Below, piece after piece: positions 995 through 6,103 of a stretch of DNA of 31,528 nucleotides. The DNA comes from a virus. Position 1 is the first letter of the stretch. The number at the start of each line of letters is the position of its first letter. The stretch is from positions 1-31,528 of the IMG/VR virus record IMGVR_UViG_3300009183_006602. One strand, 5' to 3'. The translations under genes and the position numbers were made by a program. The notes under the pieces were generated by a model, which saw only the letters and a program-made list of their open reading frames with translations, was not told the origin of the DNA and made no database searches.

Positions 995-3229
995 GTGAGC
1001 ATTCGCAATCCACTCGACCCCCGCATCCTCCGCAGTCTCATCGCTGGCGTCTGCATGGCCATCCGTCCTCGCTTCTCTGGCGGCATCGGCGCATGGGCCA
1101 AGGCGCAAAAAGTCCCCATCACCAGCACCCAGAACACCACCTACTCTGGGGAAAAATACGACTTCGACCGTTTCCCTGTCGTTGCCAGCCTCATGTTTGG
1201 CTTTTTCGAGCACCCCACCGCCCGGGAACTCTTCGTCGCAAAATCCGTTCAGACCGCCTTCACCACCGTTGCCTTCTTTGCCTGCGCCTGGCAACTCACA
1301 GAGGGAGATCCTGGCAATATCATCTACGTCATGCACACCCGGGATGCCGCCCGGGACAAAATGAAAGACGTCATGAATCCCATCTTCTCCGCCATCCCCG
1401 CCCTCCGCACAGGCGAGCGGTTGAACTTGGTAGGAGCCGATGCTGAGAGCACCGCTGAGGCCATGCGATTCAGCGGCGGCACCCTTTATGTCGGTGGCGG
1501 TCAGTCCGCCAGCATCCTCACCAGTACCCCCGCTCGCATCGTCCTCCTTGATGAGGCAGAGCGTCACGCCTTCATGGGGAAATCCACCACCTTTGAGCTT
1601 GCCCGGGGCCGCATGACCGGAGCCAATGATGGAAAACTCGTCGCCTTCTCCAAGCCAGAGCAAATGTCCACCTGGAGCATGGACGCCCGCACCGGGCAGT
1701 GGAAAGTAGAGCCCCGCCTCCTCTCCCTCATGGATGCAGAGTGGGTCAGTGGAGATCAGCGGGAATTCCACTGCCCCTGTCCTCACTGTCAGGCATGGCA
1801 CCCTATCCATTGGGAAAACATCCACTACCGCCACCTCAATGAAGCCCTCCCTGGCATGAAACAAGCCCTCTGGAACTGGGACCGTTTCGAGAAAGAAGTC
1901 TACTGGCAGTGCCCCACCTGTGCGGGCCGCGTCCATGAGGGACCGGAAAAACACGCCATGATCCTTGCTGGATCCCGCGCCCCTCTTGATCAGTGCTGGC
2001 CCCCCGCCCCCCTTGAGCACCGCCGGGAAAAAGGAGCCAAGCCCCGCGCCGAACCTCACAAATGGTCCGCCACCGTCTCAGCCCTCACCGACATCGCCTT
2101 CTCCTATATCACTTGGGGGAAGCTGGCCATCCGCTGGATCAATGCCCAGGGCGACTCCACCAAAATTGTCAACTTCATCAACGAAGTCCTCGGCAAGCCC
2201 GAGCGTCCCCTCGCCGCAGAAGACACCACCATCGAGCACCTGCGGAAGCTCATCCCCAGCACTCCCCCGCGTCCAAACTCCCAGGACCCTCTGCCTTGGA
2301 AATACCGTCAGGAAGACGGCACCCCCACCTTCCAGATCCCCCTCCTTGCCGCGCAACTTGGCGGGCAATTTGATCATGACACCCTCACCTGGGGCCCTGT
2401 CCGTGATCAGTCCCTCCGGTGTGATCTCTGCATCGGCATGACCGTTGACCGTCAATCTGGGAAAAAGGATGAAAGCGGCTACCTCCCCTACCGTGTCCGC
2501 GCCTATCACTATGATGGACGCTCCTTCCTCCTTGATCAGGGCAGCTTTCCCTACCATGAGCAGGGCGACTTCACCGCCCTTGTCGAGTATATGCAGTCCG
2601 CCCAGTTCCGCACCCTTGATGATCAGTGGTTTGGCATTGATGTCGTCTGGATCGACCTTGGTGGGGATGACGTCCCTGACGCCTATGACCTCTGTTATGA
2701 CTACGGTGAGGGTAATGTCCCCCGCCTGGAAGGCGTCCGGGGCATCGGTATCGGGGCCAATGGCCGGATGCCTGTCGAAAGTGAGGGAAAAAACCTCTGG
2801 ATAGGCACCCGGAAAGACTCACCAAAACCCGTAAATTATTGGAAATCCAATGGCCAATACTGGGAAAAATACCTTTACGAGACCGTCATCCAGCGGTTCA
2901 CCCCCGCCCGCCACCGTCCATGGGCACCCGCCCTCTACTTCCCCATTGATATTGAGGAAGACTACCTGCGCGGCCTCTGCGCCATGCGTGTCGTCGATGT
3001 CCCTATCCGCAAAGGCGACCCCCGCAGCCCCACCCGCCCCATGTACGAGAAAAAAACCACCTCTCATGTCAACGATCCCGGTGACCTTGAAAAAATGGGC
3101 TGCCAGATGCACCACCACTATCGTCTCCAGCACCTCCGCCGGGGTCTTCAGACAGAGGAGTCCTTTGATCCCATGGAAGACGCAGAGCCCACCCCGGAAT
3201 CCACCGGAAAGGACTACCTCCTGAAGTAA
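995..3229 (+). CDS. Terminase large subunit, GpA family
   Basis: This is the packaging motor ATPase and nuclease that cuts concatemeric phage DNA and pumps it into the prohead. A GpA-type phosphate-binding loop (VAKSVQTAFT) lies at residues 81-90 and a Walker B strand ending LLDEAER at 184-190. A zinc-binding insert has CPCPHC at 260-265 and CPTC at 306-309. The C-terminal nuclease region has the first acidic strand in TVDRQ followed by YRVRAYHYDG, and later WIDLGGDDVPDAY. The 744-aa length is a little above the lambda A protein. The start used is GTG 995; ATG 1055, twenty codons inside, is an alternative. It stands 26 bases after the small subunit gene. Confidence 0.9.
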   Translation: MSIRNPLDPRILRSLIAGVCMAIRPRFSGGIGAWAKAQKVPITSTQNTTYSGEKYDFDRFPVVASLMFGFFEHPTARELFVAKSVQTAFTTVAFFACAWQLTEGDPGNIIYVMHTRDAARDKMKDVMNPIFSAIPALRTGERLNLVGADAESTAEAMRFSGGTLYVGGGQSASILTSTPARIVLLDEAERHAFMGKSTTFELARGRMTGANDGKLVAFSKPEQMSTWSMDARTGQWKVEPRLLSLMDAEWVSGDQREFHCPCPHCQAWHPIHWENIHYRHLNEALPGMKQALWNWDRFEKEVYWQCPTCAGRVHEGPEKHAMILAGSRAPLDQCWPPAPLEHRREKGAKPRAEPHKWSATVSALTDIAFSYITWGKLAIRWINAQGDSTKIVNFINEVLGKPERPLAAEDTTIEHLRKLIPSTPPRPNSQDPLPWKYRQEDGTPTFQIPLLAAQLGGQFDHDTLTWGPVRDQSLRCDLCIGMTVDRQSGKKDESGYLPYRVRAYHYDGRSFLLDQGSFPYHEQGDFTALVEYMQSAQFRTLDDQWFGIDVVWIDLGGDDVPDAYDLCYDYGEGNVPRLEGVRGIGIGANGRMPVESEGKNLWIGTRKDSPKPVNYWKSNGQYWEKYLYETVIQRFTPARHRPWAPALYFPIDIEEDYLRGLCAMRVVDVPIRKGDPRSPTRPMYEKKTTSHVNDPGDLEKMGCQMHHHYRLQHLRRGLQTEESFDPMEDAEPTPESTGKDYLLK

Positions 3230-3295: not shown

Positions 3296-4033
3296 ATGAA
3301 CAACCAAGGAAAATTCAATGAGTTGGCACTTTTCGCGGGGGCTGGTGGCGGCATACTCGGAGGCAAATTGCTTGGATGGAGAACTGTTTGCGCCGTCGAA
3401 TGGGATGATCATGCCCGAAAAATTCTACTCGCCAGACAAGACGATGGATGTCTTGAGCCCTTCCCTATCTGGGATGACGTGCAAACCTTTGATGGACGAC
3501 CGTGGCGCGGATTGGTGGATATCGTCTCTGGGGGATTCCCATGCCAAGATATCTCAACCGCAGGCGGACCAAATCGAAAAGGACTCGCTGGAGCGCGAAG
3601 CGGACTTTGGGCGGAAATGGGGCGAATCATCAGGGAAATATCACCTCGATTTGTGCTTGTGGAAAACTCGCCAGCATTGGCTTTTCGGGGGCTTGGAGTC
3701 GTGCTCGGAGACCTGGCCGCGATGGGGTATGATGCGAAGTGGGGAGTGGTGGCCGCTTCCGATGCTGGCGCACGACACGAGCGTGAGAGGATATGGATCG
3801 TGGCCTATAATTGGGACGCCGATAAAAACGCAGCGGGGACGCAGCGAGGCTTTTATCAGCCCTGCCAAGAATCCATTCGAGCTTTGTCTGAAGGGGTATC
3901 TCCCGCACCCATCATGGGTCGAAGGGCTGATGGGGTGGCCGGATGGATGGACAGACTTGAGCGGCTCGGCAATGGACAAGTTCCAGCTGTGGTTGCGAAA
4001 GCATGGCATCTTCTCGCTCCCCCCATCACTTGA
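3296..4033 (+). CDS. DNA (cytosine-5) methyltransferase
   Basis: The enzyme transfers a methyl group from S-adenosylmethionine to C5 of cytosine in DNA. Motif I is ALFAGAGGG at residues 11-19, motif IV is GGFPCQDIS with nucleophile Cys83, motif VI is VENS at 122-125, motif VIII is RHERERIW at 160-167, and motif X is LGNGQVPAVVAKAW at 224-237. The target-recognition segment between motifs VIII and X is only about 55 residues, so the 245-aa protein is shorter than host enzymes (over 300 aa). No restriction partner is near, so it is an orphan, probably protecting phage DNA from host restriction. It interrupts the terminase-portal order and has an AT-rich leader. A long open frame runs inside it (see the overlapping entry). 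Confidence 0.92.
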   Translation: MNNQGKFNELALFAGAGGGILGGKLLGWRTVCAVEWDDHARKILLARQDDGCLEPFPIWDDVQTFDGRPWRGLVDIVSGGFPCQDISTAGGPNRKGLAGARSGLWAEMGRIIREISPRFVLVENSPALAFRGLGVVLGDLAAMGYDAKWGVVAASDAGARHERERIWIVAYNWDADKNAAGTQRGFYQPCQESIRALSEGVSPAPIMGRRADGVAGWMDRLERLGNGQVPAVVAKAWHLLAPPIT

Positions 4034-4076
4034 GCAAAAAAACGTGCTGGATAATGCACAGACGTCGAATCCGTAG
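3318..4076 (+). CDS. Candidate overlapping gene in the +1 frame of the methyltransferase
   Basis: A 252-codon frame, shifted by +1, begins 22 bases inside the methyltransferase gene and runs 43 bases past its stop. Other shadow frames in this window are dominated by Pro/Ser or Gly; this one has balanced composition with many Trp, Glu and Asp. It begins MSWHFSRGL, contains ETWPRWGMM in the middle, and near the end has GLMGWPDGWTDL. From memory, proteins starting MSWHFS and carrying WPRWGMMR and LMGWPxGWTDL motifs recur in phages that have this methyltransferase type, which would mean both frames are conserved. I cannot verify that here. Function is unknown. The alternative is a chance open frame imposed by conserved methyltransferase motifs. 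Confidence 0.5.
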   Translation: MSWHFSRGLVAAYSEANCLDGELFAPSNGMIMPEKFYSPDKTMDVLSPSLSGMTCKPLMDDRGADWWISSLGDSHAKISQPQADQIEKDSLEREADFGRKWGESSGKYHLDLCLWKTRQHWLFGGLESCSETWPRWGMMRSGEWWPLPMLAHDTSVRGYGSWPIIGTPIKTQRGRSEAFISPAKNPFELCLKGYLPHPSWVEGLMGWPDGWTDLSGSAMDKFQLWLRKHGIFSLPPSLEQKNVLDNAQTSNP

Positions 4077-4469: not shown

Positions 4470-4501
4470 TTTATTGCTAGTTGATAGAAAAATCCTCTCC
4501 C

Positions 4502-6103
4502 ATGTCCCGTTCCCGCAAATCCCGTCTCCGTCTTTCCGCCTCCGGCCCTGCCGTTCTTGCCGCCCCCCTTCCGGCTCCCGCCGCCATCGCCACCATCCTT
4601 CCCAGCAGTGGCTCCTCCAGCATCGGTTTCGCGCAGACTCACGATGCTCATAACTTCGTCCCCCCACTCTACCGCCGGGAGCAGGATCAACTCACTGGTT
4701 TAGACCTCCGCACCGTCCATGACAAAGCCACCCGCCTTGTCATGGAAAACCCCTACGCCCTTGGTCCTATCGCCAGCGTAGCAGACTACCTCGGCCCCGC
4801 CATGCCCCGCGCCGGGACAGATGACACAGAGTGGAATCAGATTGCAGATCAGTGGTTTACAGAAGCCTACTGGGACCGGGGCCTCTGGGACGCCAGCCGG
4901 AAATTCACCAGCCCTCACGCCCAGCGGCAGATGAATATCTACTCAGACACCCATGGGGATGTCCTCAACGTATTCACCCATGACGCAGAAGGCATTCCCT
5001 GCATCCGCATGATCCCCGCCCCCTCCATCGCCAGCCCTTATGAGGGCGGTTATGGTCCAAACCGTGTCTGGCGGGATGGCGTCAAAGAGGGCCTCCACCA
5101 CCGTCACATTGCCTGGCACGTTCTCGCAGATGAAGACGCCCCCATCAATCTCGCCACCTTCCAGAGAAAAGGTTATATCGTCAATGAGGCAGATGCCGTC
5201 ATGATCGGTAACTTCAAGGAAGGGGCCGCCCGGGGCTTCTCCCGTCTCATCCCCACAGGCAGCACCATCGTCCAGATGCAGATGTATGATAACAGCACTC
5301 ACGACCTGTTGAATCTTGCCAGCAAAATCGGGATGTCCCTTGAGACAGAGGGCGGGCAGCCCGCCGCCACCAACGTCAAGCCCATTGGCGGCGTCCTGCG
5401 CGGGCAGACCACCAGCGTCCCCGTCAATGACGCTGGCACGGAGACCACCCTCCGCCGCTACAAAGAAGAATTCCTCAGCGATGGTCCCGCCGTCATCTCC
5501 ACCGCCCCTGGGCAAAAGATCAACCTGCACAACCTTGATCGTGACCTCCCTGACCTCGCCAGCCTGCGGGGTTCTGACTACGAGCGCATCGCCATGTGTT
5601 ATGGTCTCCCTGTCACCATCCTCTTCTGCATCCAGTCCGGTCTTTTCAATATCACCGGACCTAATGTCAGGCTCGCCCTTGGCCGCGCCAAAACCTGGCG
5701 GGATCAGGAACTCCTCAAACGCGAGCCCCTCATCCGCCGCCATTACGCCCGCGTCATCCAGTGGGGCCTCGACACCCGCCAGATCCCCCAGCCCCGGAAA
5801 GACCTCCGCTACTGGCGTTGCCAGATCCAATGGGCGAAAAACTACACCATCGACGAAGCCCGCGATGTCTCCAACGATCAAAAGCGTCTCGCCATGGGAG
5901 CCACCACCCCGCAGGAAATCGCCGCAGAGTACGGCACCTCCGCCGCCCAGAATATCAAAGATCAGGTCGCCTGGGTAGAAGACATCTACCGCCGCCTTGA
6001 GGAAAAGAACCTCCCTACCACCTTGCACTTCCCTGGCTGGTCCCCGCCCTGGCAGTCTGCCGCCGCCGTGCCTGACAAATCCGCCCCTGCTAAAATCGCA
6101 TAA
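4502..6103 (+). CDS. Portal protein, lambda gpB type
   Basis: This is the dodecameric portal at the unique capsid vertex through which DNA passes. After a basic, Ala/Pro-rich N-terminal extension, the body carries features typical of the lambda-type portal family: THDAHNFVPPLYRREQDQL near the start, MENPYALGPIASVADYLGP, and a central basic or polar segment with FSRLIPTGSTIVQMQMYD. A C-terminal region ends RHYARVIQWGLDTRQIP. The order portal, S49 protease, capsid supports the call. I chose ATG 4502, giving 533 aa; a TTG at 4481 would add seven residues. The C-terminal segment after residue about 470 is Ala/Glu rich. The strong C-preference at third codon positions matches the neighbours. Confidence 0.85.
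   Translation: MSRSRKSRLRLSASGPAVLAAPLPAPAAIATILPSSGSSSIGFAQTHDAHNFVPPLYRREQDQLTGLDLRTVHDKATRLVMENPYALGPIASVADYLGPAMPRAGTDDTEWNQIADQWFTEAYWDRGLWDASRKFTSPHAQRQMNIYSDTHGDVLNVFTHDAEGIPCIRMIPAPSIASPYEGGYGPNRVWRDGVKEGLHHRHIAWHVLADEDAPINLATFQRKGYIVNEADAVMIGNFKEGAARGFSRLIPTGSTIVQMQMYDNSTHDLLNLASKIGMSLETEGGQPAATNVKPIGGVLRGQTTSVPVNDAGTETTLRRYKEEFLSDGPAVISTAPGQKINLHNLDRDLPDLASLRGSDYERIAMCYGLPVTILFCIQSGLFNITGPNVRLALGRAKTWRDQELLKREPLIRRHYARVIQWGLDTRQIPQPRKDLRYWRCQIQWAKNYTIDEARDVSNDQKRLAMGATTPQEIAAEYGTSAAQNIKDQVAWVEDIYRRLEEKNLPTTLHFPGWSPPWQSAAAVPDKSAPAKIA

Follow-up and report, generated by a model that had tools for sequence, protein, structure and literature searches.

M.EcoHK31I is a methyltransferase of two chains, and its beta gene is reportedly nested in the alpha gene in another frame and is said to code for about 176 residues. 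According to PMC3404938, the large polypeptide of this enzyme (YGGCCR; 1995) features motifs I–VIII and X, the small polypeptide features motif IX, and both polypeptides are required in vitro. The same source gives the TRD as predicted in the larger subunit and not in beta. M.AquI (CYCGRG) is also a naturally split alpha/beta C5-methyltransferase (PMC3404938). The locus described here lies in a window of 31,528 nucleotides (the whole stretch of DNA that was analysed). Judged from sequence comparison, and with a probability of about 0.87, it is a C5-cytosine DNA methyltransferase that is split naturally into two polypeptides, alpha and beta, which would be encoded by the same DNA in two frames. 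No phage description of this overlap was found in the literature searched, in which subscription journals are largely outside coverage.

The locus and its start codons

The sequence-only reading had reported a +1 open reading frame of 252 codons that crosses the methyltransferase gene and runs past its end, and this frame is present exactly as claimed (Table 1), with the beta ORF extending 43 nt beyond the alpha stop codon. The neighbours of the pair are a lambda-type terminase large subunit (995–3229) and a portal protein (4481–6103), and the window is therefore phage DNA. The methyltransferase pair (3296–4076) is placed within the packaging cluster, between these two genes, and not in the early region. 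The pair is an orphan methyltransferase, and none of the genes that flank alpha and beta was recognised as a restriction enzyme.

Table 1. Positions in the window of alpha, beta, and the features that they share
Feature	Positions	Strand	Description
Alpha, the catalytic chain of a C5-cytosine DNA methyltransferase	3296..4033	+	245 aa; motifs I–VIII and X, without TRD
Beta, overlapping gene in the +1 frame	3318..4076	+	252 aa; C-terminal part is a TRD-like segment and motif IX, putatively of the same enzyme
Probable Shine-Dalgarno sequence of beta, AAGGA	3306..3310	+	Within the first codons of alpha, 7 nt 5' of the beta ATG; read from the sequence
Beta start codon, AATGAGTTGGCAC	3318..3320	+	Inside the Asn-Glu-Leu codons of alpha; alpha ATG 22 nt upstream
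Variable stretch after motif VIII	3806..3905	+	Beta: TRD-like segment; alpha: poorly constrained linker, predicted to be disordered
Doubly coded conserved site	3906..3991	+	Beta 'HPSWVEGLMGWPDGWTDL' (motif IX) over the run of alpha into motif X ('RRADGVAGWMDRLERLGNGQVP'); conserved alignment columns and hhalign

Of 111 distinct loci, 88 have the alpha start upstream of the beta start by exactly 4 nt. This tandem-start pattern is xTGnATG, mostly xTGAATGAG, and usually one Shine-Dalgarno sequence lies ahead of both starts. In a minority of loci alpha begins further upstream of beta, and the window is among them with an offset of 22 nt and a separate AAGGA ahead of beta; L011, L016, and L052 are similarly arranged. 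A clear Shine-Dalgarno sequence for alpha was not found in this window, which is a point against the split-enzyme reading.

Division of the motifs between alpha and beta

Alpha matches the Pfam family PF00145 (DNA_methylase) over residues 10–190 with an E-value of 7e-31. The sequence-only reading had stated that the methyltransferase frame carries all canonical motifs, which holds for motifs I, IV (GFPCQ), VI (ENS), VIII, and X (LGNGQVP), found in this order in a Rossmann-type catalytic domain as in other C5-methyltransferases; however, the TRD and a canonical motif IX are absent from the frame. The AlphaFold model of alpha (pLDDT 81) has a confident methyltransferase fold and aligns with M.HhaI over 215 residues (VIA-align, Z 21.6, rmsd 4.0). 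The hhalign alignment of alpha with single-chain enzymes stops after motif VIII, and a TRD is not recognisable in the model because residues 185–209 are predicted to be disordered, with a pLDDT of about 45 over the variable stretch.

Beta gave no match in Pfam or NCBIfam. It matches PHROG_1008, annotated 'DNA methyltransferase' (1.7e-14), and two small PHROGs of unassigned function. An HMM of beta built from viral +1 proteins matches the C-terminal halves of single-chain actinophage C5-methyltransferases between motifs VIII and X (i-E about 1e-8), and the single-chain proteins matched by this HMM are Rita gp76, prophiGD91-2 gp27, Moonbeam gp69, and prophiFSAT01-1 gp6. Aligned onto one single-chain protein with hhalign, alpha falls on residues 4–161 (E 5e-37) and beta on residues 332–386 (probability 97.8, E 1.2e-12); beta residues 193–249 align with the motif IX region of the single-chain enzymes. 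This match cannot be a shadow of alpha, because the matched stretch of the single-chain enzymes shares a frame with motifs I–VIII and X. The beta HMM also matches +1 ORFs of single-chain genes (4e-13 to 3e-19). Similarity over motifs I–VIII may be a shadow of alpha and was therefore excluded from the evidence for beta, which was limited to counts of stops, classes of substitution, and what lies past motif VIII.

Three roles had been offered for the second product, namely an inhibitor, a partner, or part of the enzyme. The last is the best supported because beta shares homology, in its C-terminal part, with the stretch of single-chain C5-methyltransferases that holds the TRD and motif IX. Together with the lack of a TRD in alpha and the stronger constraint on beta in the variable region, this makes it most likely that beta belongs to the enzyme. 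It is improbable that beta is a genuine overlapping gene for a separate protein (an inhibitor, a regulator, or an anti-defence factor) next to an alpha that is complete as a methyltransferase and has a minimal TRD, since the homology of the beta C-terminus is to a segment inside single-chain methyltransferases, alpha is least constrained in its variable region, where it is also predicted to be disordered, and beta was found only together with alpha. A separate protein is favoured by the AlphaFold model of beta alone, which is poor (pLDDT 57), and by the N-terminal 150 residues of beta, which lie over alpha motifs I–VIII and for which no homologue was found outside the overlap; both are also points against a split enzyme. 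The predicted location of the M.EcoHK31I TRD in the large subunit, as given in PMC3404938, points the same way and likewise counts against the split-enzyme reading. Foldseek with the beta model found no PDB chain, and a profile search of the PDB with beta gave nothing significant.

Selection in the two frames

Substitution classes were counted over 31 independent pairs of homologues that are 71–95% identical. The rate of alpha-silent, beta-changing substitutions divided by the doubly silent rate (SN/SS) is 0.28 (0.22–0.37), 0.31 (0.25–0.41), 0.30 (0.20–0.45), and 0.41 (0.23–0.91) in four regions along beta; the ratios of 0.28–0.31 cover beta residues 1–163 and the variable region, and 0.41 is that of motif IX. 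The rate is below the doubly silent rate in all four regions, and therefore beta is constrained over its entire length. The corresponding figures for alpha in the same regions are 0.07, 0.11, 0.56, and 0.35, and alpha is strongly constrained in its catalytic part only. Over the variable region, the beta frame is under tighter constraint than that of alpha, with an SN/NS of 0.53 (0.40–0.68). An earlier count with non-independent pairs gave the same picture of selection. The codon-level alignment that had been proposed as a check of the second gene thus shows that both frames are under purifying selection.

Alternatively, ribosomes could undergo a programmed +1 frameshift close to motif VIII and make a single chain out of the N-terminal half of alpha and the C-terminal half of beta, in which case the two ORFs are not independently initiated. 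Single-chain enzymes of the same order exist and the relative frame of alpha and beta is always the same; nevertheless, such a frameshift is slightly less probable still than a separate protein, because beta is open and selected throughout, including residues 1–65 upstream of any such shift, because it possesses a conserved ATG and start layout of its own, and because the fusion would be without motif X, which remains in the alpha frame.

Stop codons in the +1 frame

For the stop counts, 80 viral loci were collected with the alpha protein as the sole bait and 75 distinct loci were used; expected numbers were obtained by shuffling synonymous codons within each gene (1000 shuffles). All 80 viral loci, which span a G+C content of 46–64%, keep the +1 frame open almost from one end of the gene to the other, whereas the +2 frame of the same loci contains 5–22 stops. 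The overlaps of the 75 distinct loci have 0 stops in the +1 frame against 354 ± 12.6 expected (lowest shuffle 316), and the +2 frame shows no depletion, with 1142 stops where 927 are expected. Counted by region in 87 viral and bacterial-genome loci, +1 stops number 0 against 53, 227, 58, and 69 expected. The sequence-only reading had named freely scattered +1 stops in methyltransferase homologues as the result that would speak against a second gene, and these 75 viral loci have none.

Control C5-methyltransferases, which are single-chain or unrelated, have +1 stops at chance numbers (Vibrio 21 against 20.9 expected, Rita 7 against 6.2, Moonbeam 9 against 10.6). Some relatives of alpha among the controls have stops only outside a central open block, and their nested +1 ORFs are shorter betas. 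That the open +1 frame is a mere by-product of the amino acids and codon usage of alpha is next to untenable. Taken by itself the window is no more than mildly surprising, with 0 stops where 2.8 are expected (one-sided P about 0.01), and shadow translation can yield HMM similarity, as in the +1 ORFs of single-chain genes; but the 0 against 354 expected stops refute the by-product reading, and the chance numbers in the controls and the two-frame constraint in the 31 pairs speak against it as well.

The MSW[HL][FY]S start and the motifs ETWPRWGMM and MGWPxGWTDL are strongly conserved among beta homologues, in agreement with the MSWHFS start and W-rich motifs that the sequence-only reading had named for many phages with this methyltransferase type. 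There is strong support for a genuine overlapping gene in the +1 frame from the avoidance of stops, purifying selection in two frames, conserved tandem starts, and presence across phyla.

Distribution and variant loci

When bacterial genomes were scanned with the beta profile, 67 loci were obtained, in Proteobacteria, Verrucomicrobia, Nitrospirae, Acidobacteria, Actinobacteria, and others. Alpha overlaps beta in the -1 frame in all 63 bacterial-genome loci with both matches, and in 2 of these a frameshift breaks both genes. The length of beta is about 230–290 aa and is greater in some loci. The extreme overlap is conserved in phages and in bacteria of many phyla, and annotation usually shows one gene.

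Several loci depart from the common arrangement. In an E. coli prophage copy annotated as a pseudogene with an internal stop (L160:2501–3262), both frames are stopped at nearly the same place, and therefore one lesion may disable both genes. Two MAG loci (L095:1427–2153 and L128:2461–3418) have a stop in the variable region of alpha, with beta intact and motif X in frame downstream; either decay or another way of sharing the work between the chains may lie behind this, and the two loci are a point against the split-enzyme reading. Unannotated nested +1 ORFs of 177 codons in a Bacteroides fragilis plasmid (L171:847–1377) and a Porphyromonas phage (L170:775–1305) match the beta profile and likely form a short-beta class.

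In L086 (1500–2810), the doubly coded motif IX/X site holds an inserted HNH-type ORF, whose Pfam HNH match is weak and falls short of the curated cut-off. The insertion interrupts both frames and is possibly a homing element aimed at the most conserved stretch. L088 (901–2118) has the same downstream +1 sequence as L086, and an Rfam search of the two found no intron at E 0.1. The +1 ORF of L086 and L088 (405–434 codons) ends in motif X, which was taken as motif X in beta; this was rejected after reading three frames, as the L086 insertion shifts the frames. In the variable stretches of the betas of L063, L024, L007, and L128, PTP-containing modules (e.g., GNYNRKGASKTSGDGLATAV) recur in differing combinations, and these sequences suggest an exchange of specificity modules.

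Proposed mechanism and significance

In the split enzyme proposed here, alpha would supply AdoMet binding and catalysis (motifs I–VIII) as well as motif X, and beta, started at its own ATG, would supply the target-recognition segment and motif IX. Both chains are presumed to be made from one mRNA region, usually with one Shine-Dalgarno sequence and two starts 4 nt apart, and would assemble into one active enzyme, a putative heterodimer in which both chains are needed. The enzyme may mark phage DNA against host restriction, which would be an anti-restriction role. A broader proposal appears reasonably likely, namely that these loci form a phylum-spanning class of C5-methyltransferases with both subunits encoded by practically the same nucleotides. 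One ribosome binding site and two starts 4 nt apart would set the alpha:beta ratio in this class, and specificity would be read in the beta frame only, with the exchange of TRD modules changing specificity and the alpha linker tolerating it.

The pair would rank among the longest well-supported same-strand gene overlaps of phages, with about 0.7 to 1.3 kb doubly coding. Because automatic pipelines mostly retain just one of the two genes, annotated genomes would usually lack the part of the enzyme that bears its specificity. A recoded alpha cloned as 'the methyltransferase' would destroy beta. The locus also poses an evolutionary question, in that motifs IX and X are consecutive in ordinary enzymes and are here superposed in two frames.

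Comparison with known split methyltransferases

The small subunit of M.AquI features half of the variable region together with motifs IX and X; in contrast, beta has motif IX only, motif X is left in the alpha frame, and the two genes overlap almost completely. The split methylases of mycobacteriophages (Phanphagia gp65/gp66 and Peaches gp77/gp76, PHROG_1008) are closer, as their second gene is likewise in the +1 frame and is homologous in the TRD/motif IX region; however, it also has motif X and its annotated overlap with alpha is only about 23–251 nt. Phanphagia gp65/gp66 and gp32/gp33 of the Streptomyces phage Lilbooboo are split in the same frames as alpha and beta with short overlaps, and these two actinophage pairs and that of Peaches are intermediate arrangements. 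In the Paenibacillus larvae phage Bloom, both nested ORFs (gp56/gp57) are annotated as DNA cytosine methyltransferase, and gp57 matches the beta HMM (1.4e-21); gp57 begins well within gp56, without the shared start that characterizes the class described here.

E. coli DNA was searched with a Klebsiella phage copy, and prophage homologues were found but no named EcoHK31I system. The likeness to M.EcoHK31I is one of description: alpha corresponds to the large chain with motifs I–VIII and X, and motif IX lies in the second chain. In both systems, for M.EcoHK31I reportedly, the second chain is encoded in another frame of the first gene, which is here the +1 frame over nearly the whole gene, and the nested betas of 177 codons from Bacteroides and Porphyromonas resemble the M.EcoHK31I beta of reportedly about 176 residues. 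The systems differ in that beta here reaches the start of alpha itself, with the starts 4 nt apart in most loci, and in that the pair is an orphan in a phage setting. In addition, selection here points to a TRD in beta, whereas PMC3404938 gives it as predicted in alpha for M.EcoHK31I. The earlier suggestion that the second product is undescribed does not stand, given the motif division of M.EcoHK31I, the 'DNA methyltransferase' label of PHROG_1008, and the annotation of both Bloom genes. The layout matches that of M.EcoHK31I, and the locus is therefore not undescribed in principle, but is an extreme and widespread variant.
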